Of a stretch of 64,000 nt of DNA, positions 1,871 to 57,580 are shown one piece after another. The DNA lies in NCBI RefSeq assembly GCF_028745505.1, contig NZ_JAQZZL010000002.1, forward strand, positions 992,001 to 1,056,000, written 5' to 3'. Position 1 is the first letter of the stretch, and every line of letters starts with the position of its first letter. A program made the translations under genes and the position numbers. The notes beneath the pieces are model-generated. The model was not told the origin of the DNA. It searched no databases and saw only the letters and a program-made list of their open reading frames with translations. Origin of the DNA: Lentisphaera marina (lineage in GTDB: Bacteria > Verrucomicrobiota > Lentisphaeria > Lentisphaerales > Lentisphaeraceae).

Positions 1871-4800
1871 TTAAAACTTCTTAAGTTGAATATTTTTGAA
1901 CCAGGCTTTCATGGGTACACCGGCGTGAAGCTGCATGCCAATCATACCCTTAGCTAAACGTTCAGGGTGATTATCGGTGATATCAACCGTTACTTTACCA
2001 TTAATTTTGTGAATCATGCGGTTACCTTTGCAGATGACTTCGTAGGTTTGCCACTGAGTTACGTCAATTTTTTCTGGTGCAGTAGTATTTCCAGTTACTT
2101 TCACTTTTTGATTAGCATCGATCTCAACTTTTTGTCCACGCTTAGCAATGATACCGCGCTTGCCGAGCCCCTCACCATAAAGCATAGCTAAAAATTCAGG
2201 TTTAGGGTGCATATCACATTGGTAACCACTGAGACGGAAAATGCTTTCGTCTTTCCAGAAAGCACGGTACATCATGCCTGAATTGTTGCCTTCAAAGCGA
2301 CCTTCGAAGCTAAGGTGAAAATCTTCAACATCTCCACCTTCCCACACGAGGAAAGAGTTGGCTTTGAGCTTGTTGCCATGAGTGCTACCATAGATGACAC
2401 CATCTTCGACTTTCCAGAGTTTTGAATCACCTTTCCAGCCAGACAGATCTTTACCATTAAAGAGCTTAGTTGCACCTTCTAAGCTAGCAGAACCTTTGAA
2501 GTAGTCGTGCTCAGGGTTACCTGCAGAGAATATGTAGGCAATGAGGTCACTAAGTTCTTCTGGGTTGAGTGAGTAGATGAGTGCTGGTGGCATTGGTGAT
2601 ACGTGCCATTCTTTTTCACTCTTAATATCTGCGACTTTGATTTCTGCTGTGTATTCAGCCGAGTAGGGGTTAGTCATCAAGTGAAGTAAACCATCTTCCT
2701 CTGTACCTTTACGTCCGACAAGTTCTGAACCGTCTTTCATTTTGAAGACTTTACTTCCATATTGATCAGAAATGACCTTAGAGGGCTCGATTATGTTTTC
2801 CATCATATCTTTAAGTGTGTAGCGGCTGGAGGAACCTGTGAGGTCAGGACCAATACCACTGCCTTCACCCGCAAAGCGGTGACAGCTCGCACAGGCAACT
2901 GCATGATAGAGATTTTCACCAGTCTTAAAATTACGTCCCTTAAGATTATCTTTGACTGCAGCAACGGCGGTTTCAACTGTCCAGACTTGGCCAGGGCCTT
3001 TAGGTGGTGTGATAGCACGAGGCTTAACAAGTGATTTACTAGAGATTTTATCATACTTTGATCTTTTTGCGGGGTCCGCAATATTGGCGAGAGCCTCTTT
3101 GCGAGTATTCTCAATAAATGGTGCAAAACTGTTCCCCCCTTGCCAGGTTTTAGCTTTTGGGAACCAAGAGAAGTACGTTGCGTAGTCCGCATCAGTCCAG
3201 CCATTCTTTATTGAGCGAAGTGAAAAAGCTAAAGAAACCTGCTGTGTATTGGGGCGGAACTGCTCGGTTCTTTTTGCGGCGGCTGCATAACGGTCGTTAC
3301 GTTGTAAAATTTCATCAGAAAGAATCTTCTTTTGTTCTTCAGTAGCACTCACCATTTCGCGAACAGCGCGAGGAATAATATTCGGCGCATCGAGGTAAAG
3401 AAGAACTTGCACGAGTTCACGATTCTCAAAATTGCTTTTTGAGGGGTAATGAGGATTAAGGTTTTTTATAACAAGTTGAGCATCAGTGGTGCTAGGCTTT
3501 CCTAAGCGAGTGAATGCGAGTTGATAAGAGCGAATTGCGGCGAGTTTTTGATCTTCTTTTAAAGAAGTATAATTGATTTGGTTGAGCTTTTTCAGAATGA
3601 GTGATTGATCGCTTTGTTCGCCCATGCGAGCTAGTGCACAAGCACCTTCGATGATTGCCCAAGAATTACTTTCTGATTCAAATTTATTTTTCCAATCCGC
3701 AGTATTTTGCCTCTCGATAGCGACACGAGCAGCGTGACGAATGAAGCGGTCTGAATTAGAGAGGTGGGGCCAAGCCTTGTCAGCAATAGCTTTTGAAGCG
3801 GGTAGGGTGTGCAGTTCTTCGAGTTGTCTGCGCAACAAAATTTCTTTAGTTAAGTTTAAAGGCTTTACAGCTTTTGTTGACTCTTTACCTGTATAAGTCA
3901 CTTTATAAAGTGCTGATGCGGTAAGGCGTCCGCCTACTGCAAAGTACATGTTGCCATCGCTGTGAATGATCACATCTGTAAGAGGGAGAGGTTTTCCTGA
4001 GATGAATTGTTCTTTTGTAGCGGTGTAACTCGCACCTTCTTGATTAAGGTGAATGGCGTACATAGTTCCGTAAGTCCAGTCATTGATAAAATAAGCACGT
4101 TGGTATTTTTCGGGAAATTTTGCGCCAGTGCCCATTACAGTGCCCGTGGGACTACCTGGACCAATATCAATTGTTGTTGGGACCGTGTCGGTGTAGTATT
4201 CAGGCCATTTACCTGAACCATGGCGCCAGCCGTAGTCTGCTCCTGATACAACGTGATTGACGCGGCATGGACGATACCAAGGTGAGCCAATATCATATTC
4301 CATGTCAGCATCATAGGTGAATAGCTCACCTTCAAGAGTAAAACCGGCATCAAATTGATTGCGGAAGCCATGTGCAATGAGTTCACGGTCTTTACCGTCA
4401 GGTGAAACTTTTAAGATAAGTCCACCTGGAGCTAGGCGTCCACGATTGTGGCCACGGCCATCAGCCATACGAGGAAGGATATGATCTTCGCTCCAGTTTT
4501 TTGCCATGCGGTATTTATTTATATAATCAGGTTGATCAGTATTGTTACCACCAATGAGGTAGATGGATTTTTTATCGGGTGAAAGTACCGCACTATGGAT
4601 TCCGTGCTCACCACGTGTTTTGAATTGGATCAAAAATTCTTCTTTATCGTATTGATCATCACCATTTGTATCCGTCAGACGGTAAAGGCCCTTAGGGTCT
4701 TTTTCATTATTGATAACATAAAGGCTACCAAAAGCATAAAGTACACCATGTGCATGACTGACTTTTACATTGAGTTTCTCGACTTGAGCTTTTCCAGAAC

Positions 4801-5437
4801 TTAAAGTGATTCGAAAGATTCCACCATATTGATCACAAGCAATGAGTCGCCCTTTATCATCAGAGCAGAGACCAACCCAAGAACCTTGTGTTTTAGCATC
4901 TACATCATAAATTTTCTCAGCTTTAAAGCCAGGAAGTGTAGTCACAGAAATAATGTTAGGTGTAGAAGTGACAGCTTTAGGTTTTTCTTTATCAAGAACT
5001 TTACCCCAAGGACCTTTGCCATATTTAGCGACTTCGTTAGCAGCTAACCATTGACCTTTTGGCGCACGTGCCTGCCAGTTTTTGTCAGAAGAATATTGTT
5101 TACCATCAATTTCGAGGCTAAAGACTAAACCCGCCATATTGCCTTCATTATCGGCCTGGATAAAGAACTTATTTTTACCTTTCTTCAGGTGTTGCGTCAA
5201 GTTTACTGTTTGCGCTTGCTGCCAGGTTTTTGAGCTAGCAAGTTTCTTGTCGTTGAGGTATAAGATAAATCCATTGTCACAAGTTATGACTATAGAGGCT
5301 TTTTTTGGTTTATTAGCTAAGTTGATAATTCTTTGAAACTCGGCTTTTTCAGTTTGTATTTTTCCTTGTTTCCAAATCCACATGGGTTCGGCTGCTGATA
5401 ATACTGAGCAAAAAAGAATAAGCAGTATGTATTTCAT
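1871..5437 (-). CDS. Secreted PVC-type dehydrogenase / heme-binding / DUF1080 composite protein
   Basis: About 1188 residues. The in-frame ATG at 5437 is preferred over that at 5446 because AGGG lies 9 bases before it and it begins directly with the signal peptide MKYILLILFCSVLSAA. Domains in order: a jelly-roll sugar-binding-like module (about 20-130); a glucose/sorbosone-dehydrogenase-like beta propeller (about 170-570) with motifs such as GHNRGRLAPGG; a HEAT-like helical region (about 580-800); a cytochrome c module with CASCH (about 852-856) and distal methionines; and a DUF1080 / 3-keto-disaccharide hydrolase jelly roll beginning LFNGKDLSGW (about 990 to the end). Such proteins are typical of Planctomycetes and Verrucomicrobia and are thought to oxidise or cleave sugars outside the cytoplasm, passing electrons to the heme. 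The reaction is not established. It sits alone with its own terminator. Confidence 0.88.
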   Translation of the reverse strand: MKYILLILFCSVLSAAEPMWIWKQGKIQTEKAEFQRIINLANKPKKASIVITCDNGFILYLNDKKLASSKTWQQAQTVNLTQHLKKGKNKFFIQADNEGNMAGLVFSLEIDGKQYSSDKNWQARAPKGQWLAANEVAKYGKGPWGKVLDKEKPKAVTSTPNIISVTTLPGFKAEKIYDVDAKTQGSWVGLCSDDKGRLIACDQYGGIFRITLSSGKAQVEKLNVKVSHAHGVLYAFGSLYVINNEKDPKGLYRLTDTNGDDQYDKEEFLIQFKTRGEHGIHSAVLSPDKKSIYLIGGNNTDQPDYINKYRMAKNWSEDHILPRMADGRGHNRGRLAPGGLILKVSPDGKDRELIAHGFRNQFDAGFTLEGELFTYDADMEYDIGSPWYRPCRVNHVVSGADYGWRHGSGKWPEYYTDTVPTTIDIGPGSPTGTVMGTGAKFPEKYQRAYFINDWTYGTMYAIHLNQEGASYTATKEQFISGKPLPLTDVIIHSDGNMYFAVGGRLTASALYKVTYTGKESTKAVKPLNLTKEILLRRQLEELHTLPASKAIADKAWPHLSNSDRFIRHAARVAIERQNTADWKNKFESESNSWAIIEGACALARMGEQSDQSLILKKLNQINYTSLKEDQKLAAIRSYQLAFTRLGKPSTTDAQLVIKNLNPHYPSKSNFENRELVQVLLYLDAPNIIPRAVREMVSATEEQKKILSDEILQRNDRYAAAAKRTEQFRPNTQQVSLAFSLRSIKNGWTDADYATYFSWFPKAKTWQGGNSFAPFIENTRKEALANIADPAKRSKYDKISSKSLVKPRAITPPKGPGQVWTVETAVAAVKDNLKGRNFKTGENLYHAVACASCHRFAGEGSGIGPDLTGSSSRYTLKDMMENIIEPSKVISDQYGSKVFKMKDGSELVGRKGTEEDGLLHLMTNPYSAEYTAEIKVADIKSEKEWHVSPMPPALIYSLNPEELSDLIAYIFSAGNPEHDYFKGSASLEGATKLFNGKDLSGWKGDSKLWKVEDGVIYGSTHGNKLKANSFLVWEGGDVEDFHLSFEGRFEGNNSGMMYRAFWKDESIFRLSGYQCDMHPKPEFLAMLYGEGLGKRGIIAKRGQKVEIDANQKVKVTGNTTAPEKIDVTQWQTYEVICKGNRMIHKINGKVTVDITDNHPERLAKGMIGMQLHAGVPMKAWFKNIQLKKF

Positions 5438-5592
5438 ATAAATCATCCCTAATAAATTTTATTTTAAAATATGATTAACACTAATCATCTATGAGAAGTT
5501 TATATATGAAAAAAATGGCTAAAAATATAATAAAATCGGCAAATGGTGTGTAAAGGATGCTTTCTTGTAACGTTTACAAAGAAATTGAGTTC

Positions 5593-29734: not shown

Positions 29735-32700
29735 TTAGTAAACGTCTCTAACGTAACGTTTGTCGGACTTCATTTTATCAACATAAGCTACAGCGCTTGC
29801 TGAATCCATTTTACCATGTTCAGAAATGATTTCATGAAGTGCCTTGTCTACATCTTTAGCCATGCGATAGGCGTCGCCACAAACAAAGAAATAACCGCCG
29901 TCTTCAAGCCATTGGAAGAGCTCTGCACCATTTTCACGCATGCGATCTTGAACGTAGATTTTTTCTTCTTGGTCACGAGAGAAAGCAAGAGATAACTTTT
30001 CAAGGTAATTTTTCTCTTTTAATTCCTTAAGTTGATCTTTATAGAAGAAATCATTTGCTTCATTTCTATCACCAAAGAAAAGCCAGTTTTTACCACTTGC
30101 TTGTCGCATTTCACGCTCTTCTAAGAAAGCACGGAAAGGAGCTATGCCAGTACCAGGGCCTACCATTATCATAGGTAAGTTATCATCTTCAGGCACAGCA
30201 AAAGCTTTGTTTGCGTGCATATAGCAAAGAATGTCTGTTTCGTTTACTTTTACACGATCGGCTAGGAATGTGGATGCCACGCCATGACGAGTACGGCCGT
30301 GACTAGTATAACGGACACTTCCGACGGTTAAATGAACTTCACCAGGGTGCTTTTTCGGACTAGATGAAATTGAGTAAGCGCGAGCCTGAAGTTTTTTAAG
30401 TAGAGAGATCAAACTCTGAGCATTAAGTCCGTGTTTGTAGTGAGCGAGGAAGTCGATAAGGTCACGACCCCACAGGAAGTTACTTAAAGCTTCTTTATCT
30501 TCAATGATATTGAGTAAATCACTGTCTTGAGAGTTTTGAGCCACTTGCTTAATGAGGTCCTTTGTAGGAGTCTTGATTTCGAAATGATTAAGAAGAGCTT
30601 CACGGAAGCTCATTTCACCATCTTTACCAAGATCAACAAGAGTTTCGGCATCTTCTGCAAGAACTTCAATGATGTCATCTACTAGAGACGCCTCATTAAC
30701 AGGAATTACATTTAATGCATCACCAGCTTTATAGTCATAGTCAGATCCATCGAGACTAATTTCATAGTGAACTACTTCTTTACTGGAATCATCAGAAGTT
30801 AAAACAACTTTTCTAATGAGTTTAGCAGGGAAAGGTTTTTTCTTACCAAAGGCATTATCGTCTTTTTTAACGCTAGTGTTAGCATTACCTACGAGGTCAC
30901 CAGCGGATTGATCGCCTAGAGCAGATAAGGCAGGAAGAGATTCCTGAGCCCATTCTTCAAATGGATCCTCAAAGTCAACATCACAATCGACGCGCTTGAA
31001 TGCGCGACTAGCTCCTTGCTTCTCCAAAACTTCGTCCCATTGCTTACCTGCTTCACAGAAAAGGTCGTAAGAACTATCGCCTAATGAACATATAGAAAAG
31101 AACATGCCTTCAAGACTGGGAGCATCTGCGGCAGTCATAGCAGTGTATAGAGCTTGGGCATTATCAGGTTGTTCACCTTCGCCATAAGTTGAAGTGATGA
31201 TAATCACTCGTTCCATAAGCTTTAAATCATCGATCGATATATTGCCCATGTCGTGGACTTGAGCAAGCATACCAAAGTTTGTCGCTAATGCCGCGCAATC
31301 ATTGGCGAGAGATTCAGAGTTTCCTGTTTGAGTGCCAAAGAGGATATGAAGTTCTTTACCTTTTGGTGATGAGTCTTCTGAACTCGCAACACCAAAACTT
31401 AGACCATTGAAGTAGCCATTGAGCCATTTTAGTTGACCTTCACTAAAAGGAACATTCTCTGGGATGAGTGGAAGTCCAGTTTCTTTATTGAGGGCGTCTT
31501 TTACTAGCGCCAAAGATATTTGCGCTGCAAAATCTTTTAAGAAAGTCATGCGTGCCGTAATCGCTTCTTGATTTTTTAGGTCTTGTTCAATAATCCATGC
31601 GTAGGAGCCAAGTGAATTATTTTCCAAAACATCGCGTAAGTAGAGTGCTTTTTTGTAATCATAAACGCGTTTGTCGGCTAAGCTTTTAGCTAAAAGTTCA
31701 TCATCAAATTTGGAGAGAACATCACGAGATACTTTCAGCAAGAGCTCCATGAGTCCTTTATCTTCAGTGAAAATGATATTTTTGATGTACTTAGCCAAAG
31801 TTTCGTCTTTGAGTGCTAAATCAAATTTATTCATTTTATCTAAAGTAATGCGTGAAGCTTTGCAAAAAATCGAATAACGAGAAATTAAGCGGAAGATTAA
31901 AGCCGTATCAGTATCGCCAATTGCTGGAGTCTTACCTTTGAAAAGACGAGTCTCATTTTTGTAAGCATCTTTGATTTGTTCGAGTTGAACATGAGTATAA
32001 TTACTAGCCAGCTCTTCAAGCATTTCTTTACGTGAAGTATTTTTAAGCAAGCAGTCCCAAGTTTGAGTCTCATATAAAGCCAATGGAATTGCGTAGTAGA
32101 AATGATTTTTTTCGACTTCCCAATTGGCGAGGATAGACTCAGCTATTTCAGAGTGATTGAATTTAACTTGTTCTTCCAGCAGGTACTTAATAATGTTTTC
32201 ATGAACCTCAGAGCTGTCACTTCCATCACATTTTTTAATGATAACGGAGTCCTGATTGTAAAATAAGGGGAGCTTGTTATTTGGATCATACTGATAAGCG
32301 TTGCCGCCAGACATACCATTGCCCCAGCCCTTACCAAATGTACCAAGATTTAGTATGGTTCCCGAAGTCATGTATTCACAGAAGAAATCACCCACGCCTT
32401 CGACTACTGCCATGGCACCAGAGTTGCGAACAGCAAAACGGTCACCTGCTTCACCATTAATATAGCAACGTCCACCAGTAGCGCCAAATAGAGCAAAGTT
32501 ACCGATGAGAACATTTTCGCCTGCTAAAGATGAGCCACCACCAGGTGATTTAACAGTGATGATACCACCCGACTGAAGTTTACCAACACCATCATTACAT
32601 GTGCCGAAATGTTGTAATAACATACCATTATTGAGAAGTGCACCGTAGGATTGACCAGCGGAACCATTTGTTTGAATGGTTAAGCTTGAAGGAGCTAGGT

Positions 32701-35700
32701 AACGGCGGCCAGTATCATTTTCAATAACAGCTTCTGCATTATCAAAGTCGCTATCTTTAAAACGGTGATTGAGGATTCTTTCTATATCAACCGAGAGTTG
32801 ACCGCCAACAGATTTATGACGGTTATTGAGTTTATACTCAGATCCCTTTAGAAGGAGTTCTTTTTCTTTGCCGTAGAGTAAATCTTTTTCGACTTTACCA
32901 AGGATTTTGTCATCTATAGAGAAATCAGCTTCAAGGTAAACGGGATCTTCAATTTTCAGTTCGTCAACTTCTGCCAAAAGTGCTGTAAAATCGAGTTGGC
33001 CGATGATTTTATCGTGATTAACTAAGTGAAGTAGCTCGGTTCTTCCACGGATCTCATCAATACTCTTATAACCTAGATAGGCCAATAGTTCACGTACTTC
33101 TTGTGCAACATTAAGAAAGTATTGTGCCAGTGCTCTAGCATCACCTTGGAAGAGTTCAGGGTTAGTTGTGATACCAGCAGGGCATTTGATATTACAGTTT
33201 TTAGCCATGACACATTTAAGCATCATCAAGGCAGATGTGCCGAATTCAAATGAATCAGCCCCAAGTATAGCAGATTTAATAACGTCTATACCAGTTTGGT
33301 GAGCGTTGGACGAGCGTAAAATAACTTTTTCACGTAAACCATTAAGAGCTAAAGCTTGGTGAACTTCTGCAATACCGAGTTCAGCTGAACGACCGGTGTT
33401 TTTGAGGGATGTTACTGCAGCTGCACCTGTGCCACCAGTATTACCCGCAACGTTAATTACATCTGCACCAGCTTTGGCGACGCCAACAGCAATAGTACCA
33501 ATGCCTTCAGAGGACACAAGTTTAACAATAACTTTGGCACGAGAAGCTTTACAGTCGTGAATGAGTTGACCTAAATCTTCAATTGAGTATGTGTCGTGAT
33601 GAGGAGGAGGGGAAACCAATTCGATTTGAGGTGTGCCACCACGACTTGATGCAATCATCACAGTGACTTTAAAGGAGGGGAGTTGACCTCCTTCACCGGG
33701 TTTGGCACCTTGGGCGATTTTGATCTCAACTTGCTCTAGGTAAGGATCTGCAAAATAGCCTGCCCATACACCAAAGCGACCAGAGGCAACCTGTTTAATT
33801 GAGCTTGCTTTGATTGTGTTGTAACGAACTCTTTTTTCGCCACCTTCACCAGAGTTTGATAGAGCACCCGCAATATTAGCACCTTGAGATACAGCTTCAT
33901 GAGCTTCAGCAACAAGAGCACCGTGCGACATGGCAGCTGAAGAGAAGGTTGCCGTGATCTTATGGGCTTTTTGTACTTGTGACTTATCAATTGAATCACT
34001 AGCGGTGCGAATGTTTTTGAGGTAATTAAGGATTTCTGGGTTCTCTGTCTCAACAATGATACTAGCATCTTTTATTGTAGTGATAGCTTTAGAAGCAAAG
34101 CGCTCATCAAAATACTCTTTTAACCACTGTAGTCTTTCCTCGCTGCTAAGTGACATACTCAATTCAAAACTATTTGAACTAATTTCTTTATTAGATAAGC
34201 CTTTTACTTTAAAGCAGTTGTTACCTTTGAGTGCCTGTTTATTCAAAATCGCTTTGAATTTACTGGCATCTTTGGCTTTGTTGATATCCGCAGGGAAGTA
34301 CATGATGTCACGTAAAGCGGCTGGACGAACTTTTCGTTCAGTATAGACATTGCGGGCAAATTGACGGTAGGCCTGGGTAATACGGTGTGAATCTATTTCT
34401 TCAGGAGTGCGTTGTCTTTCGCCGTATTTTTTATAAGTTAGATGACCAAGAGGATCATCTTCTGATTGATCTGACTCTGACAAGAATTCATCAATGTCAG
34501 AAGTGTAATCTTGTGAATCAGCGATTTCGGTGTCGCGGATTAAATTACGGTCCATGACACTGGCAATGGAACGCATGGCTGCTTGGTGCATGGAGAGTTC
34601 TGCATTCTCGAATATGCTGGATAAAGCGGCGATCAGGTCGCTTTCGTGCATGATGTCCTTGCCGATTCTTTTGTATATCTGTTTTAATTGCGAAAGGGCA
34701 TCAGGGAAAGATTCTTTAAGTTCAAAACGTTCAAAGATATCCTCAAGTTCTTCATCAATTGAATAAAGTACTTCTTCTTCAGTCATGTTGATATATTCAC
34801 GAACTGCAACTAAGCCGAATGAATGGCCTGCACCGCCTTGGCGTTCTTTAAATAGCCCAAGGTGTGGGATGTCATTTTCATCTTTGATGCCAAAAGCTTT
34901 GTAATGCCATTCACTAGCAGAAGCGGCAATTTTACTAAAGCCTACACCACCAACAGGCGAGGTGATATTAGGAAAGCGTTCTTTGAGTTGTGGGTCATTG
35001 GTATTGAGGTAGTTTGACTCGAATATTTCTCCACCAATGTAAGATTCTGCCGTACAAAGGCCAAATTTCCCCATGATTTTCATGAGCGATTTTGCAATGG
35101 CTTTTTTGTAATTGGCTAGAGCTTTATCAAGCTCCTTGGGCATAAGTGTAAGTGCGCGATCATGTATTGTTAGAGGGCACATTGCAGAGGCACCAAAACC
35201 TAAGGCTGTAGCAACATCGTGAGAGGATGCGATTTGTCCAGTTTCGGCGATTATGGAAGAGTTAAAGCGCAGACCTTTTTCGATGAGGTGTTGATTGCTA
35301 GAGGCAATGGCTAGCAAAAGAGGAATTGCCGCTTTTGATTTTGATATTCCCTTGTCGGAAAGGATGATGATGCCATTTTTTGCGATAGCAGCAGATTCTA
35401 CCTCATTACAGAGCTCAGTGATGGCTGCGTTTAAATTAGCTTCGTTTTCTTTTGGATCTTTAGAAGGAGTGTAAAGACAGCTGATAGTACACGTGGCAAT
35501 GTCTTTTTGTGAACGAATTGCGGACAATTCATTAACAGTCAGAAAAGGGTTTTGAATAACGATTTGTTTTGAATCCGATTCTGAAAAATTAGGCTTTGCA
35601 CCAAGTGATACACGAAGGGTCATGCCATCTTTTTCACGAATTGAGTCGAGTGGAGGATTGGTGACCTGAGCAAATCGTTGAGAGAAATAGCGCGACATGC

Positions 35701-37180
35701 CACCTTCATCTGCGTTGAGGACGTTGAGGGAGACGCCGTAACCCATAGCCGATATTTTCTCTGCAGCACCCTGAATCATTGGGTCCAGGAGGAAGCGGAA
35801 TGACTCTTGATTCATGCCATAAGCAACGGCACGTTCATATGTGTCGAGTTCTGGTTGTGTTTGATCGATTTCACCAGCTTCTAGATCTGCTAAATCAATT
35901 TTTTTCTTTTTTAGTAAAGATTTGAAATCTTCTTGACTCGCAAGTGACTTTTCTATACTTTCTGTAGTATAAGATTTGCCAGTTTCATGGTCAAAATAAA
36001 GCATGCCACCAGCTTCGATACGGCCTCGGGTAATGACTTCTTCAGGGGGAAAGTCTATTTGACCAGCTTCAGACATGACACAGACATATTCGTTTGTTTC
36101 AATTGATCTAAGTGGGCGTAAGCCAAGGCGGTCTAAACGTGCACCAACTTTTGTGCCATCAGAAAAAAGTAGGGCAGCGGGGCCATCATTTTTTTCTTCG
36201 TATAAAGAGAAGTACTCATACATATCTCTAATTAGCGGATCGATGTCTTGTTTATTTTCCCAAGCAGGGGGCATCATTGCGAGGACCGCAGTGGCTATAT
36301 CCATTTTATCTTCAATCACGCGGCGTTGAAGAGTTTGATCAAGGCGAGCTGAGTCAGATTGACCTTTAGGAAAAATCACTTTTTTGTTTTTTTGCTTGGC
36401 TATAGCATCTTCTGAAAGGCGGTTTTTCTTGTCGGTATTTAACTCGCCATTGTGCGCCATGCGACGAAAGGGCTGTGCCATAAATGTTGCAGGAGCTGTG
36501 TTTGTGGAAAAACGAGTGTGGAATAAGAAAACACGGATTTCCATATCTAGGTCAGAGAGGTCTTTGAAATAAGGGACAACTTCGCCTGAATTTAAACGAC
36601 CCTTGTAAACAATCGTTTTTGAACTTAGTGAAATAGGGTAGAAACCATGGAGTTTTTTGTTTGAATAAGCAGCCGATTCAATCTCATTTAAGGCTTCATC
36701 AATCAAGTTTTCAAATTCCAGTTGATCACGGCATGATTCAGGCTTAGCAAAAATAAGTTGATGAATGGGGAGCTGAGCTTTGGCTGCGGCTTCATTTAAT
36801 GCTTTTTTATTAACGGGTACTTCGCGCCATTTTAGGATAAGGACGTTTAGTTTTTCGAAAGTGCTTTCAATTATTTCACGAGCTACATTATCCTGTGTGC
36901 TATCTTCAGGGAAAAAGAAATTACCGACGGCAAATTCACCAAGTTCTACTGAGTCATTCTCGAGGACTTTTTGGAAAAACTTCAGTGATAAGTCAATGTT
37001 GACACCCGCACCATCGCCAATGCCTTCAGCGCTCATGCCTCCACGGTGTGGTATAACACAGAGGGCTTCGTGACCTTTTAGTAAAACATCGTGGCTTTGC
37101 TTACCATCTTTACGAGTAATAAAGCCAACACCACAGTTATCGTGATATTTATCGGCATCGTATAATAATTTATCGTTCAT
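29735..37180 (-). CDS. Glutamate synthase large subunit fused to a CysJ-like diflavin reductase
   Basis: A 2481-residue single frame. Residues 1 to about 1600 are a complete GltB/Fd-GOGAT: the class II glutaminase nucleophile is Cys16 (YHDNCGVGF) after a 15-residue propeptide; the central domain has SQRFAQVTNPPLDSIREKDG; the FMN synthase domain has VASGRFGVWAGYF, KIAQGAKPGEGGQLP and NVAGNTGGTGAA; cluster cysteines are 1323, 1329 and 1333; the GxGxG helix domain has SPGGGSSLAGENVLIGN and TGGRCYINGEAGDRFAVRNS. A helical linker (about 1600-1900) follows. From about 1905 (PFSEGQLKWLNGYF) the chain is CysJ-like: flavodoxin FMN site FGTQTGNSES (about 1948), FAD site RAYSISSS (about 2267), NADP site VGPGTGIAPFRAFLEER (about 2340) and the CysJ-type end RYVRDVY. 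I infer a self-sufficient NADPH-dependent glutamate synthase: NADPH to FAD to FMN to the cluster to the synthase FMN. No gltD is adjacent. No frameshift or stop at the junction. Confidence 0.93.
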   Translation of the reverse strand: MNDKLLYDADKYHDNCGVGFITRKDGKQSHDVLLKGHEALCVIPHRGGMSAEGIGDGAGVNIDLSLKFFQKVLENDSVELGEFAVGNFFFPEDSTQDNVAREIIESTFEKLNVLILKWREVPVNKKALNEAAAKAQLPIHQLIFAKPESCRDQLEFENLIDEALNEIESAAYSNKKLHGFYPISLSSKTIVYKGRLNSGEVVPYFKDLSDLDMEIRVFLFHTRFSTNTAPATFMAQPFRRMAHNGELNTDKKNRLSEDAIAKQKNKKVIFPKGQSDSARLDQTLQRRVIEDKMDIATAVLAMMPPAWENKQDIDPLIRDMYEYFSLYEEKNDGPAALLFSDGTKVGARLDRLGLRPLRSIETNEYVCVMSEAGQIDFPPEEVITRGRIEAGGMLYFDHETGKSYTTESIEKSLASQEDFKSLLKKKKIDLADLEAGEIDQTQPELDTYERAVAYGMNQESFRFLLDPMIQGAAEKISAMGYGVSLNVLNADEGGMSRYFSQRFAQVTNPPLDSIREKDGMTLRVSLGAKPNFSESDSKQIVIQNPFLTVNELSAIRSQKDIATCTISCLYTPSKDPKENEANLNAAITELCNEVESAAIAKNGIIILSDKGISKSKAAIPLLLAIASSNQHLIEKGLRFNSSIIAETGQIASSHDVATALGFGASAMCPLTIHDRALTLMPKELDKALANYKKAIAKSLMKIMGKFGLCTAESYIGGEIFESNYLNTNDPQLKERFPNITSPVGGVGFSKIAASASEWHYKAFGIKDENDIPHLGLFKERQGGAGHSFGLVAVREYINMTEEEVLYSIDEELEDIFERFELKESFPDALSQLKQIYKRIGKDIMHESDLIAALSSIFENAELSMHQAAMRSIASVMDRNLIRDTEIADSQDYTSDIDEFLSESDQSEDDPLGHLTYKKYGERQRTPEEIDSHRITQAYRQFARNVYTERKVRPAALRDIMYFPADINKAKDASKFKAILNKQALKGNNCFKVKGLSNKEISSNSFELSMSLSSEERLQWLKEYFDERFASKAITTIKDASIIVETENPEILNYLKNIRTASDSIDKSQVQKAHKITATFSSAAMSHGALVAEAHEAVSQGANIAGALSNSGEGGEKRVRYNTIKASSIKQVASGRFGVWAGYFADPYLEQVEIKIAQGAKPGEGGQLPSFKVTVMIASSRGGTPQIELVSPPPHHDTYSIEDLGQLIHDCKASRAKVIVKLVSSEGIGTIAVGVAKAGADVINVAGNTGGTGAAAVTSLKNTGRSAELGIAEVHQALALNGLREKVILRSSNAHQTGIDVIKSAILGADSFEFGTSALMMLKCVMAKNCNIKCPAGITTNPELFQGDARALAQYFLNVAQEVRELLAYLGYKSIDEIRGRTELLHLVNHDKIIGQLDFTALLAEVDELKIEDPVYLEADFSIDDKILGKVEKDLLYGKEKELLLKGSEYKLNNRHKSVGGQLSVDIERILNHRFKDSDFDNAEAVIENDTGRRYLAPSSLTIQTNGSAGQSYGALLNNGMLLQHFGTCNDGVGKLQSGGIITVKSPGGGSSLAGENVLIGNFALFGATGGRCYINGEAGDRFAVRNSGAMAVVEGVGDFFCEYMTSGTILNLGTFGKGWGNGMSGGNAYQYDPNNKLPLFYNQDSVIIKKCDGSDSSEVHENIIKYLLEEQVKFNHSEIAESILANWEVEKNHFYYAIPLALYETQTWDCLLKNTSRKEMLEELASNYTHVQLEQIKDAYKNETRLFKGKTPAIGDTDTALIFRLISRYSIFCKASRITLDKMNKFDLALKDETLAKYIKNIIFTEDKGLMELLLKVSRDVLSKFDDELLAKSLADKRVYDYKKALYLRDVLENNSLGSYAWIIEQDLKNQEAITARMTFLKDFAAQISLALVKDALNKETGLPLIPENVPFSEGQLKWLNGYFNGLSFGVASSEDSSPKGKELHILFGTQTGNSESLANDCAALATNFGMLAQVHDMGNISIDDLKLMERVIIITSTYGEGEQPDNAQALYTAMTAADAPSLEGMFFSICSLGDSSYDLFCEAGKQWDEVLEKQGASRAFKRVDCDVDFEDPFEEWAQESLPALSALGDQSAGDLVGNANTSVKKDDNAFGKKKPFPAKLIRKVVLTSDDSSKEVVHYEISLDGSDYDYKAGDALNVIPVNEASLVDDIIEVLAEDAETLVDLGKDGEMSFREALLNHFEIKTPTKDLIKQVAQNSQDSDLLNIIEDKEALSNFLWGRDLIDFLAHYKHGLNAQSLISLLKKLQARAYSISSSPKKHPGEVHLTVGSVRYTSHGRTRHGVASTFLADRVKVNETDILCYMHANKAFAVPEDDNLPMIMVGPGTGIAPFRAFLEEREMRQASGKNWLFFGDRNEANDFFYKDQLKELKEKNYLEKLSLAFSRDQEEKIYVQDRMRENGAELFQWLEDGGYFFVCGDAYRMAKDVDKALHEIISEHGKMDSASAVAYVDKMKSDKRYVRDVY

Positions 37181-37577: not shown

Positions 37578-38528
37578 CTACTTGCTTACAGGTCGGAATG
37601 GGTTGGGGTTTTTCTTTAGCCAAACTTGCAGCTCATCAAAAGACATAGAAGAAACCATTAAGCGACGAGTTTTACCTTTAACAGCAATTTTATATTCATT
37701 CTTAAAAGCCTCAGAATTACAAAGAGACGAAAAGGAATGATTCATAACAATATTTCCATGTAAAGTTTTTGAGGCTTCCTCTAAACGAAAAGCTGTATTA
37801 ACGACATCACCTAAAATAGTATTTTCACTCATGGCAACAGAACCCATATTAATACCACAACCAATGTCTATATCTTTGGGGATTTCCGGGTGTATTTTTG
37901 GTAGAGTTTTAGTCAGTTGATGGATGTCATATGCGGCATCTAAAATCAAAGGCACTGCGGCAGGGTCAGGGTGTTTTAATTCCCACTTAGCAAGAACGCA
38001 ATCACCAATGAATTTATCTACTACGCCAAAATTTCTCTCAATAATATTTCTTGTCGCTTTAAACCAGTAGGTCATGGCTTTAGTTAGGCTTTCTATAGGC
38101 AGATTTTCTGACATGTTAGTGAAATTACGTATATCTGCAACCAATATAATCACAGAGCGAATTTCTGCACTTACTGGAACATCACCATGGTCATAAGTTT
38201 CCATATCACTACTAGGTGCATTAGGGTGTTTATGAAAAACCATTTGAGTATTACCAATGATCAATTTATCTTGATCCGAAAGTAGTATTGGACTGATTAC
38301 TCTTTGATTATTAAGATAGACACCATTTCGGCTTCCCATGTCGATGAGGTAGTAATTACCTTTACCAACATAATTGATTACTGCATGGTTCCTAGAGCAA
38401 AGAGGGTCAGTTAATTGTACGACATTTGTAGAATCTCTCCCGATAGGAGTGATTGGAAGGCAATTAACCTGTTGGACAGATTTATCGCAATTTATGATTT
38501 CTACGAATGAGGTCATTTTACTTAACAT
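37578..38528 (-). CDS. FHA domain-class III adenylate cyclase
   Basis: A 316-residue soluble protein. Residues about 20-100 are a forkhead-associated phosphothreonine-binding domain (IGRDSTNVVQL, CSRNHAVINY, IDMGSRNGVYLNNQRV). Residues about 124-300 are a class III nucleotide cyclase: metal aspartates 132 (ADIRNFTNMSE) and 176 (DKFIGDCVLAKW), adenine-specifying Lys172 and Asp241, and transition-state residues Asn244 and Arg248 (GDVVNTAFRLEEAS). All are intact, so an active adenylate cyclase making cAMP is expected. The FHA domain suggests control by Ser/Thr kinases, which this window has in number. Two ATGs (38528, 38516) are possible; neither has a strong ribosome site. Confidence 0.92.
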   Translation of the reverse strand: MLSKMTSFVEIINCDKSVQQVNCLPITPIGRDSTNVVQLTDPLCSRNHAVINYVGKGNYYLIDMGSRNGVYLNNQRVISPILLSDQDKLIIGNTQMVFHKHPNAPSSDMETYDHGDVPVSAEIRSVIILVADIRNFTNMSENLPIESLTKAMTYWFKATRNIIERNFGVVDKFIGDCVLAKWELKHPDPAAVPLILDAAYDIHQLTKTLPKIHPEIPKDIDIGCGINMGSVAMSENTILGDVVNTAFRLEEASKTLHGNIVMNHSFSSLCNSEAFKNEYKIAVKGKTRRLMVSSMSFDELQVWLKKNPNPFRPVSK

Positions 38529-54166: not shown

Positions 54167-57100
54167 TTAGGAATAAATTTCTACAAGGTTGTTATCACCT
54201 TTGAGGAGAGACTGGAAAGTCGTCCATTTAGTTTTGAGGCCGCCATCGCGATAGGGGTTGTCGTTAGAAGTATTGAGCTCGAGTTCTTTACCGTTGAGAA
54301 CAACCTTTTTGTCAGCAGACTTGTTGTATTTGAATACAACTGGCTTGCCGTCGATGTCGAAGTTGAAGTTAAGACCGTCGAGGTTTTCAGGGAGAACCGG
54401 GTCGATAACGAAATCTTCGTAGAAACGACGAATACCGAGTACACGTGTGATAAGAACGTTTACGTAGATACCAGGACCTGAAGAATAGATTCTCCATCCG
54501 CCTTTGGATTTAACTTTACCAGCGCGGAGGTCTTCTACTGTATCTTGAGCTTCGTAACGATCGTTGTAATCAGCATCAGAAGATGAGAAGTAGCAGTTAG
54601 ACTGACGGATCTCAGCTGACTCGAAGCTGTCCTGGATATTTACAGGGTTAACAACTTCCATAGCAGTTAAGAGCTCTTCAGCTTTACCGAGTTTAGCCAT
54701 TGCTTCCATGTAACGGAGGTGAGCGTGAACGTAGTGGTTACCGATTTCACGGCCTACAAAAGTAGCTGTTTCAGCACGTTGGAAGTTCTTGGAGATACCA
54801 CCCGTGTATTGGGGTGGTGGGTCCATGAGGTGAACACCGTCAGCGAAAAGTAGCTTGTCTTGAATCATCTGGTAGTGAGCTTCAGCCTGTTCTGGCTCGA
54901 AGATCTCGGAGATGATACCGCGAATTGCAGGAAGAAGACGGTACTTAACACCTGTTTTTGTGTCAGTTGGGTGCAAGAGAAGATCTACGTCGTCTTCAGA
55001 GTTAAAGAAGGCGAAACCGGCAGTGAGCTCGTCTTTTACGAGGTACTTGTTGAAATCAACTTTCATTTGTTCGCAAGTCGCTTTGAGCTCAGCAGCGAGT
55101 TCAGTTTTACCAGCTTTTTCGCAAACAACTTGGTAACGAGTAAGAGTTTGGTAAAGGAGTTCAACTGTCCATACAGAAACGAGCTTCTCTTTCATCTCAG
55201 GGTTGTGAGGCTGAAGTGAGTCATTCCAGTCACCGTCGCCGTAGCTAATAAGCTTAGTGTCACCTACGAAAGCATTGCGGATGTGATCTAGTTCTTTGTT
55301 GATGTGATCGAAGAGAGTTTCTTCTTTATCAGTGAATTCGAAACCTTCGATGTTGGTGTAAGGGATCTTTTCGTCGAGGATAGAAACGTCGTTGGAGTAT
55401 TCAACGTAATCACAAACAGCTTTGAGAGGCCATACGATGATATCACCGTGAGCGTGAGCCTGCTGGATGTCGTAGAATTTGTCGAACATGAACCACTGAG
55501 GCCATTCGCCGTTTTGCTCGTACTGGTGTTTGTAAACTTCGAGAACAACTTTTTTAACTGGTTCAGTTTTACCAAAAGCGAGAAGAAGTTCAACTGGACC
55601 CTGACAAACGTCACGGCTACCCCATGCAGCACCAGAGTACTGTTCGAGACCGTAAGGCTTAGTGTAGTGGATCATTGCGTTGTGTTGGAGCCAAGGGATG
55701 ATTTCGCTGAGTTTGGAAACTGAGTTATTTTCGATGCCGGAGCATTTTGCATTGTTATTGAGTGAACGCCAGTATGCATCAGCTTCTACTTTGAAAACAG
55801 AAGTATCGAAATCAGCTGCAGTGTATTTTTTAGCGTTAGCTTCAGCTTTTACGTCGTCAGTAATTGTACCTGTGAGAACGAGCTCAAACTTGCCTGTTGC
55901 AGCAGTTTTGATTGTTGCGTAAGGATAGTTTTTGTTTTCGCCGTCGAGGAAGAGAACTTCGTCACCGCTAAGAGTAGCAGCTGCGTGGCCTTCTTTGATA
56001 GAGAGGTCGAAACGGCTGTTAGGGTATTTGTTCTTACCGAAGTAATCGTGACCTGGGAAGAAAGTGAAACGCTTGTCATCAACGCGACCAACAGTTTCAT
56101 TGGCGTATTCGTTAACACCCATAATGATGTTGTTAGTAACGATGAACTCGAGTTCTTTACCAGACTCAACTTCGATGTTAGTAACGAGAACTGCGTCAGA
56201 GATAGCACACTGAGTTGTAACGATGATCGTTTCTTCTGCGCCTTTGTAGATCCAGCGACAAGCATTGAGGCTGATTTCGAAAGCAGAAGGTAAACGAAGC
56301 TGTTCGATTTTGTCACCATCTCTAACAAAGATACGCTGACCGGAAGCACGCTGGAAGTTAACCCAACCACGAACGATACCGATAGCTTTGTTGAAAGACG
56401 TGTTACCGAAAGTGACTTGTGAGTTGAAAACACCACCCATCCAGCAAGTGGAGGCAATAGCTTCGTCTGAAGGGAAGAGATCTTCGCCTGAACGTACGAT
56501 GTGACCATGAGGACGTTCGCAGTGAACTTCTTTGTGCTTGAGAACAACGTGCTTAGAATCGTCACCGTAGAAGAACGCAGCCGTTTTACCTTCGATTTCT
56601 TCGAGGTTACGCTTTTCGCCAGCAAAGTATTTTTCGAGCTCAGCGTCGTTGAGGTCTTCAGTTTGGAAGAACTTACCTTCGCCGAAGAGGTTGTTGTAGC
56701 CAGTAGTCTGAGGCTCGGGAAGCGAAATTGCTGGGAGTGCAGCAAATTCAGACTTAGCGAGTTCAACTTTTTCGAGGTCAGCATCAGAACTTGTAGCTTC
56801 GTGATTAACTTCGAAGAAAGCGAAGAAAGTTTTTTCTGCTTTAGCACCAGAAGCGAGAGCTACGCGCTTGGACTGAAGTACGTGGCAAGAGAATTCGCCC
56901 TGACGACGGATGCTGCGGATTGTGTCGTCTTTAAGAGCTGCAATTTCAGCGTTCTCTTTGTAGTTGAGACCAAAGAAGTCGATACCGTCTGTAATGAAGC
57001 CTTCAGCTCCGTCAAGAGCACCTGACATAAGGAAAGGGAAACCAGTGTGTTGCTTGAGGTTCTGACGTGCACATAGAACGTAGCCGGTCGCTTTGTCACC

Positions 57101-57580
57101 GAGAACGCTTTGATCGATGTAGTGAGAAACGTAACCTTCGTTATTGAGGGGAGCGCCTTTAGCCGCAACAGCTGCGTCTTGAACGTAGATGAAATCAACT
57201 TCAAGATCAGAACCAGTGTTTTCTGCTTCAGCAGTCCAGAACCATGTCCCAGTATTTTCTGCGAGACGGAAAGTTAGTGAGTAGTCAATATCTTGGAAGC
57301 TACCTTTGAGGACATAAGCGCGATCATCAGTTGCGATGGCAAACTTAGAGTTTTTTGAAACCATAGGGGTAGAAAGAATTTCACCGTTTTTGAAAACGCG
57401 CAGGTAGATATTGCTAACCGCTTCATCAAAAATATTACCCATGAAAAGGTTAACGAGTACGTTGTCGTTTTCGATGCTGTAAGGTGTGCCGTCCTGGAGG
57501 ATACGGAAGTGCATGCCAGTGTTATTGCGAAATTCTTTGAAGCCTAAAGTGTTTTCGTATTTGTATATGATGTCTTTCAT
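54167..57580 (-). CDS. GH94 phosphorylase, 1,2-beta-oligoglucan phosphorylase-like
   Basis: A 1137-residue cytoplasmic GH94 enzyme. An N-terminal beta-sandwich region (about 1-590) carries an extra lobe, and the (alpha/alpha)6 catalytic barrel (about 620-1050) has SGAAWGSRDVCQGPVELLLA, GEWPQWFMFDKF, AHGDIIVWPLKAVCDY and the general-acid block SYGDGDWNDSLQP with Asp787. Length and the split-up N-terminal lobe match 1,2-beta-oligoglucan phosphorylases rather than cellobiose phosphorylase (about 800 residues). Expected reaction: phosphorolysis of sophoro-oligosaccharides to glucose 1-phosphate, reversible. AAGGA about 6 bases before ATG. Codon choice is strikingly biased (CTC for Leu, TTC, AAC), suggesting high expression. 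First gene after a 321-base leader. Confidence 0.88.
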   Translation of the reverse strand: MKDIIYKYENTLGFKEFRNNTGMHFRILQDGTPYSIENDNVLVNLFMGNIFDEAVSNIYLRVFKNGEILSTPMVSKNSKFAIATDDRAYVLKGSFQDIDYSLTFRLAENTGTWFWTAEAENTGSDLEVDFIYVQDAAVAAKGAPLNNEGYVSHYIDQSVLGDKATGYVLCARQNLKQHTGFPFLMSGALDGAEGFITDGIDFFGLNYKENAEIAALKDDTIRSIRRQGEFSCHVLQSKRVALASGAKAEKTFFAFFEVNHEATSSDADLEKVELAKSEFAALPAISLPEPQTTGYNNLFGEGKFFQTEDLNDAELEKYFAGEKRNLEEIEGKTAAFFYGDDSKHVVLKHKEVHCERPHGHIVRSGEDLFPSDEAIASTCWMGGVFNSQVTFGNTSFNKAIGIVRGWVNFQRASGQRIFVRDGDKIEQLRLPSAFEISLNACRWIYKGAEETIIVTTQCAISDAVLVTNIEVESGKELEFIVTNNIIMGVNEYANETVGRVDDKRFTFFPGHDYFGKNKYPNSRFDLSIKEGHAAATLSGDEVLFLDGENKNYPYATIKTAATGKFELVLTGTITDDVKAEANAKKYTAADFDTSVFKVEADAYWRSLNNNAKCSGIENNSVSKLSEIIPWLQHNAMIHYTKPYGLEQYSGAAWGSRDVCQGPVELLLAFGKTEPVKKVVLEVYKHQYEQNGEWPQWFMFDKFYDIQQAHAHGDIIVWPLKAVCDYVEYSNDVSILDEKIPYTNIEGFEFTDKEETLFDHINKELDHIRNAFVGDTKLISYGDGDWNDSLQPHNPEMKEKLVSVWTVELLYQTLTRYQVVCEKAGKTELAAELKATCEQMKVDFNKYLVKDELTAGFAFFNSEDDVDLLLHPTDTKTGVKYRLLPAIRGIISEIFEPEQAEAHYQMIQDKLLFADGVHLMDPPPQYTGGISKNFQRAETATFVGREIGNHYVHAHLRYMEAMAKLGKAEELLTAMEVVNPVNIQDSFESAEIRQSNCYFSSSDADYNDRYEAQDTVEDLRAGKVKSKGGWRIYSSGPGIYVNVLITRVLGIRRFYEDFVIDPVLPENLDGLNFNFDIDGKPVVFKYNKSADKKVVLNGKELELNTSNDNPYRDGGLKTKWTTFQSLLKGDNNLVEIYS

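Follow-up and report, generated by a model that had tools for sequence, protein, structure and literature searches.

Glutamate synthase (GOGAT) is a main entry of ammonia into amino acids. In the 64,000-nucleotide stretch of Lentisphaera marina DNA analysed here (the window), the large subunit of this enzyme, GltB, and a diflavin reductase resembling the sulfite reductase flavoprotein CysJ are read as one protein. The locus raises the question of whether this join is real and, if so, whether the reductase supplies the electrons of the synthase and stands in for its usual partner. In the parts of PMC5775586 and PMC8097209 available to us, the NAD(P)H-dependent forms of GOGAT rely on GltD or on a part resembling it; ferredoxin-dependent forms are also described.

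One frame, seven domains

The gene occupies positions 29735–37180 on the minus strand of the window and is a single ATG-started frame of 2481 amino acids with zero internal stops. The initial annotation had described a complete GltB running in frame into a CysJ-type unit, and this account is borne out by the open frame and the order of the Pfam domains: all seven that were named are present in sequence, each far over its cut-off, four of GltB type and then three of CysJ/P450-reductase type. The GltB-type domains (all coordinates on the minus strand) are the glutaminase domain GATase_2 (residues 16–421, 35918–37135; PF00310, 339 bits), Glu_syn_central (residues 450–722, 35015–35833; PF04898, 257 bits), the FMN barrel Glu_synthase (residues 1060–1371, 33068–34003; PF01645, 348 bits) and the GXGXG β-helix domain (residues 1484–1654, 32219–32731; PF01493, 165 bits). 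The reductase begins with a segment (residues 1902–1945, 31346–31477) that aligns to the N terminus of unfused CysJ-type partners, and continues with the flavodoxin-type FMN domain Flavodoxin_1 (residues 1946–2077, 30950–31345; PF00258, 91 bits), the FAD-binding and connecting domain FAD_binding_1 (residues 2111–2305, 30266–30850; PF00667, 106 bits) and the NADP-binding domain NAD_binding_1 (residues 2339–2445, 29846–30166; PF00175, 63 bits). Cys16, the nucleophile of the glutaminase domain behind a 15-residue propeptide, and the C-terminal end RYVRDVY are both as first reported.

Family models and structures place the two halves in the same way. The window protein scores 1071 bits with the NCBIfam model of the glutamate synthase large subunit (NF008730, cut-off 1047); among its relatives, L080 scores 1064 bits and L004, at 1024.7, lies slightly under the cut-off. 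With the CysJ model TIGR01931 (cut-off 668), residues 1913–2481 score 589 bits and L080 scores 615, both under the cut-off. In a sequence search of solved structures, the GltB part matched five distinct NADPH-GltS and Fd-GltS sequences, and the best matches of the CysJ part were the sulfite reductase flavoproteins 6efv and 9c91. The same two structures were closest, among the matches listed, in a Foldseek comparison of the AlphaFold2 model of residues 1690–2481 (mean pLDDT 79.6, pTM 0.52).

A sequencing join error at 31.4–31.9 kb, a possibility raised with the original description, is rejected. Among 59 genomes (the host and its relatives) searched with the whole protein, four hold the fused chain at 68–100% identity: the host itself (G000), G001, G002 and G005. 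The two from the same genus, G001 and G002, keep the fused frame intact and are 85% and 89% identical to the window protein; in G005, from another genus of the same family, residues 578–2481 match at 68% and residues 2–389 lie on a second contig. A metagenome-assembled genome of the Lentisphaerales (L009) has a sequence identical to that of G005, very probably from the same contig, and is not counted as an extra case. The genome search found canonical GltB only, and no fusion, in the family members G003 and G004; G004, placed in the same genus as G005, is a draft that is 86% complete. When the three genus members are compared, the junction (residues 1885–1945) has pN of 0.014–0.050 against pS of 0.71–0.77 per site, and no ATG that could start a separate CysJ lies within it. 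Because independent genomes share the fusion and purifying selection spans the junction, the probability that an assembly or annotation artefact produced it is negligible.

Other genes of the window were also noted. The upstream neighbour (37578–38528, minus strand) encodes a protein in which an FHA domain is linked to a nucleotide cyclase domain. A SOGP-type glycoside phosphorylase of the GH94 superfamily (54167–57580, minus strand) adjoins a 1264-amino-acid protein with a weak GH94 match only, and a 1191-amino-acid protein (1871–5446, minus strand) holds cytochrome c and 3-keto-disaccharide hydrolase domains together.

Distribution and gene pairing

We refer to the synthase part and its unfused relatives as GltB′, and to the reductase part and its unfused relatives as CysJ′. 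A contig scan found 15 relatives of the fused protein. In 12 of these the two parts are separate side-by-side genes (with two other frames between them in L013), and the products are about 1800–1920 amino acids for GltB′, where complete, and about 580–600 amino acids for the CysJ-type protein. The remaining three are L009, which is fused; L014, which is cut by a contig end; and L016, which lacks a CysJ-type gene within 6 kb downstream and whose genome (G578) has one on another contig. Two genes are the commoner state of GltB′/CysJ′ and the fusion is the less common one.

A sequence model (A2) of a helical extension of GltB′, described below, served as the probe for a wider survey. It matched 3 of 387 genomes of the window’s phylum (G005 not among the matches listed), 95 of 201 in the order to which a methanotrophic mussel symbiont belongs (the methanotroph order, presumably Methylococcales to judge by how sister loci are labelled), 3 of 244 in the order of a Halieaceae genome, 3 of 132 in the order of a Puniceicoccaceae genome and 4 of 369 in the symbiont’s class, two of which were already among the 95. 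In 86 of the 95 methanotroph-order genomes, the CysJ-type gene follows downstream, in the same direction and within 500 bp (58–438 bp) of the extension match; in five others it follows, again in the same direction, at 1.1–7.0 kb, and in four it is on another contig. The pair is adjacent in all eight further genomes from the Halieaceae-order, Puniceicoccaceae-order and class searches, with the genes in the same direction in six and convergent in two (G059 and G941). Pairs of GltB′ and a CysJ-type protein, as fusions or as same-strand or convergent neighbours, thus span Lentisphaerota, Opitutia, Methylococcales, Halieaceae and other genomes. That one pair has been kept in three arrangements—same-strand, convergent and fused—speaks for the two acting together and against a linkage by chance. 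The distances of GltB′ and CysJ′ are also correlated over 44 loci (r = 0.985; none of 2000 permutations reached this value, the highest giving 0.442). Partner proteins would show such a correlation, but so would linked genes; these 44 pairs leave out L009, and L016 with no CysJ in its locus.

In one genome (G515, C62:137880–151963) a canonical gltB separates gltB′ from cysJ′, which places the two GOGATs in one cluster. Two genomes with a GltB′/CysJ′ pair, G059 (C16:10272–11408) and G864 (C93:193265–194395), also encode CysJ-like proteins of ~403 amino acids that match only from about residue 190 of the module and have no flavodoxin domain.

The initial annotation had proposed a self-contained NADPH-GOGAT with a P450-reductase-like electron input that replaces GltD. 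The first part of this proposal is strongly supported by comparison among genomes; the second is rejected for this organism. No gltD lies beside the fused gene within the window, and elsewhere the host genome has a normal gltB (1513 amino acids) followed by gltD (490 amino acids; TIGR01317, 697 bits). In the host, the fused enzyme is an addition to gltBD, not a replacement. In the methanotroph order, canonical GltB was not found in 26 of 29 well-assembled genomes, which were picked from the 95 for matches on long contigs and all of which hold the pair; across the 95, in which drafts may miss genes, it is present in 18. FMN-domain proteins of about 520–576 amino acids in five of the 29 were not counted as GOGAT.

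Features of GltB′ and CysJ′

A branch with SH-aLRT support of 100 splits GltB′ from every canonical row in an unrooted tree built with a quick model. The trees omit 23 loci (duplicates, truncated pieces and two partial CysJs) and, like the set of 46 GltB′ rows, keep both L009 and L117, which are identical in sequence, lie on contigs of the same length (10722) and are very probably one assembly. One mark of the family is the [3Fe–4S] ligand loop (Cys1323, Cys1329 and Cys1333; 33182–33214, minus strand), whose C-x5-C-x3-C spacing is one residue shorter than the canonical C-x5-C-x4-C. Among rows picked by a pattern allowing 2–5 residues in the second gap, the short form is found in 46 of 46 GltB′ rows and the canonical form in 19 of 19 canonical rows; six of six further distant loci also have the short loop.

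Two further segments are specific to the family. An insert of ~230 residues (residues about 790–1060; 34001–34813, minus strand) sets 274 residues (790–1063) against 46 in PDB 7mfm in a phmmer alignment. After the β-helix domain comes an extension of ~200 residues (residues 1700–1901; 31478–32083, minus strand), which unfused GltB′ proteins have too and which AlphaFold2 predicts to be entirely helical, with mostly high pLDDT. Neither segment matched a Pfam family above cut-off, with sub-threshold matches only, and the fold of the extension had no named match among the best 50 of 1297 Foldseek matches, all of which contain a diflavin reductase or parts of one. Five artificial heme oxygenase–P450 reductase fusions (about 850 columns, rmsd about 21) were not taken as a match to the extension. 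We regard the helical extension as a candidate docking or linker module.

GltB′ has the N-terminal Cys nucleophile of GltB (Cys16, a cysteine in 43 of 43 rows reaching the position) and its three cluster cysteines, and Cys16, Met479, Glu1112, Gln1157, Lys1160, Arg1180, Glu1201 and Cys1323/1329/1333 are invariant in every GltB′ row with letters. Several of these residues presumably correspond, by a mapping made partly by arithmetic, to Glu903, Gln969, Lys972, Arg992 and Glu1013 of Fd-GltS, which have known roles. Met479, kept in 44 of 44 rows with letters, matches Met479 of Azospirillum brasilense by a hand count on the alignment; a possible role for the latter on the path from Fe–S to FMN is given in the available part of PMC8097209. 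Of the 283 positions that are fixed at at least 90% in both groups, 230 carry the same residue in GltB′ and in canonical GltB and 53 do not; several of the 53 family-specific substitutions fall in the FMN barrel. The loop DGGLKTG of canonical GltB, which we take to have a role at the FMN phosphate, is SNAHQTG-like in GltB′. Together, the 53 fixed differences and the changed loop suggest that substrate or cofactor handling may differ in GltB′.

The GltB′-linked reductases form one group of 45 rows (support 98/94) in an unrooted tree with some long branches, in which the placement of single rows is unsure. The group excludes the CysJ of E. coli, four CysJs that are second copies in methanotroph-order genomes, one CysJ from G017 (a class relative of the host) and one that is probably fused to a nitrate reductase. 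FMN, FAD and NADPH motifs are present in 44 of 44 linked reductases, with the FMN loop in the form STxGEG[EA]xPDNA and the second glycine-rich loop in the form GPGTG[IVL]APF; stricter patterns matched two motifs in 29 and 42 of the 44, and the remaining sequences depart from them at a single residue. All 44 also have the NADP-domain motif SRDQ..K.YVQ, presumably for binding of the 2′-phosphate.

Other reductases of these genomes were also noted. In G491, a 1438-amino-acid frame (L108, 1672–5988) finishes with a full CysJ-like module, and its Cys-rich start resembles, by eye, a molybdopterin nitrate reductase; it is probably an NADPH nitrate reductase fusion, and G536 (C12) has a likewise arranged frame of 1392 amino acids. 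In the host genome, a 791-amino-acid siroheme reductase (C1; L059, 5886–8261) lies nearest to NirA models and has a C-terminal TusA sulfur-carrier domain.

Proposed electron input and comparison with known systems

From its architecture and conservation, the pairing of the genes and the trees, we judge that the fused protein is probably a glutamate synthase in a class of its own, self-contained and dependent on NADPH. Glutamine would be split at Cys16, and the ammonia would pass through an internal tunnel to the FMN barrel, where it would be added to 2-oxoglutarate and the imine (2-iminoglutarate) would be reduced by the barrel FMN. The electron path that we infer would run from NADPH to FAD, to the FMN of the flavodoxin domain, to the [3Fe–4S] cluster of the GltB part and on to the barrel FMN. 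In GltBD, according to the available part of PMC8097209, electrons pass from NADPH to FAD, two [4Fe–4S] clusters, the [3Fe–4S] cluster and FMN; the potential estimated for the [4Fe–4S] steps is about −360 mV or lower, and that of the [3Fe–4S] cluster is −280 mV, or −190 mV with 2-oxoglutarate. The two [4Fe–4S] clusters of GltD would have no place in the proposed route: the flavodoxin-type FMN would hand single electrons directly to the [3Fe–4S] cluster, bypassing the uphill steps. The insert and helical extension may hold the mobile flavodoxin domain against this cluster, and a docking site would be sought at the changed cluster loop, the insert and the extension; the AlphaFold2 model of the synthase half (mean pLDDT 58.8) is too poor for docking geometry. 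The products of two separate, adjacent genes would play the part of the fusion in the methanotroph order.

The CysJ-type module might instead serve a sulfite (or nitrite) reductase, as in CysJI, with its adjacency to GltB′ a mere habit, or it might serve both enzymes. CysJ is the closest characterised relative of the module, which is the sole CysJ-like protein found in the host genome and in 22 of the 29 methanotroph-order genomes (60 of 66 at E ≤ 1e-60), and six of six single-CysJ genomes examined have a siroheme reductase. Yet the module is covalently fused to GltB′, with the pairing retained in all three gene arrangements, and the linked reductases group apart from CysJs beside CysI. A second full-length CysJ occurs in 6 of the 29 genomes; that of G553 is unlinked to GltB′ and adjoins a true CysI (852 bits), and a CysI-like peptide was recognised by pattern only at the three other second-CysJ loci fetched. 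The other siroheme reductases scored fall far under the CysI cut-off of 757 bits: that of the host scores 115, and those at L043 and L044, from two genomes in which the pair is present and a second CysJ is not, score 111 and 116, their best models being ferredoxin–nitrite reductase and NirA, also below cut-off. NCBIfam scoring covered two of six fetched methanotroph-order siroheme loci and the CysI-like neighbour of one of four fetched second CysJs (L109). No NIR_SIR match was found in the paired genomes G059 and G064 (1.2 and 2.3 Mb). Because these siroheme reductases score so far below the cut-off, the linked reductase appears to be without an obvious sulfite reductase partner there; its fusion partner or neighbour is GltB′, not CysI. 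We therefore do not favour the module as the ordinary sulfite reductase flavoprotein of the host, and consider service to a sulfite or nitrite reductase, alone or shared, to be quite improbable.

Divergence in specificity could also have turned GltB′ into an amidotransferase that resembles GOGAT but uses a different 2-oxo acid or amide or forms a different product. The family-specific substitutions at otherwise fixed positions, several of them in the barrel, fit such a change, as does the canonical GltB held in addition by the host and by 18 of the 95 methanotroph-order genomes; the presumed 2-oxoglutarate-binding residues are nevertheless unchanged, and the 26 well-assembled genomes without canonical GltB also speak against another substrate, which we hold to be unlikely. 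A different division of labour would have GltB′ fed by ferredoxin, flavodoxin or GltD, with the CysJ module only feeding a soluble carrier or priming the enzyme. The FMN domain of Synechocystis Fd-GltS contains an extra loop (1llw 914–939), which we take to be the ferredoxin loop, and the phmmer alignment sets query residues 1123–1125 against it; with this loop missing from GltB′, membership among the Fd-GOGATs is rejected. The reductase moreover has a flavodoxin domain of its own, fused in four genomes. Feeding through a carrier is chemically possible, as Fd-GltS has a [3Fe–4S] and FMN chain served by a soluble carrier (available parts of PMC8097209 and PMC5775586), but we give it a very small probability.

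The reading that we prefer, an NADPH-dependent synthase driven by its CysJ-type module, likely defines a third glutamate synthase class by electron input, without the low-potential [4Fe–4S] clusters of GltD. This class would serve as the chief GOGAT in many methanotrophs of the Gammaproteobacteria, mussel symbionts among them, and would have been joined into one polypeptide in Lentisphaerota. No description of a GOGAT with a CysJ-type partner was found among the matches listed in the literature (covered without supplements, subscription journals and preprints). The available parts of PMC10623323, PMC5775586, PMC8097209 and PMC8170126 describe no such enzyme, and the words CysJ and diflavin have 0 occurrences in that of PMC8097209. 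If our reading is true, a GOGAT driven by a CysJ-type module is a separate solution to the same electron-wiring problem, and many gammaproteobacterial methanotrophs would have to be modelled differently in their nitrogen assimilation and NADPH demand. It would explain why many methanotroph genomes show no canonical GltB, and the label CysJ on GltB′-linked genes would be misleading. The GltB′/CysJ′ system would also offer a clean test of the need for the two [4Fe–4S] clusters of GltD.

With GltBD of A. brasilense and E. coli, GltB′ shares the glutaminase, central, FMN-barrel and β-helix domains, the Cys nucleophile, the cluster cysteines and Met479, and NADPH is the expected donor of the fused enzyme as well. 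In place of GltD, which has an adrenodoxin-reductase-like fold and two [4Fe–4S] clusters, the fusion has a flavodoxin/FNR-type diflavin module, and GltB′ differs further in its shorter Fe–S loop, large insert and C-terminal extension; the host’s own GltB and the fused protein share about 45% identity over the synthase half and 34% over the N-terminal half. Fd-GltS (Synechocystis, PDB 1llw/1ofd) is likewise a GltB-type chain with an electron source other than GltD, whereas GltB′ carries its own NADPH:flavodoxin-type reductase. CysJ (PDB 6efv and 9c91) is the best match by sequence and fold, sharing full-length FMN, FAD and NADP domains and the C-terminal end; the linked reductases differ in having GltB′ rather than CysI as partner, in grouping apart and, for the two scored, in falling under the equivalog cut-off. 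A catalytic module followed by a diflavin reductase in one chain is the layout of P450 BM3 and nitric oxide synthase, and a P450-reductase-like module in this position is also seen in the likely nitrate reductase–CysJ chain of G491; in the protein described here, the catalytic part is instead a glutamate synthase with an Fe–S relay.
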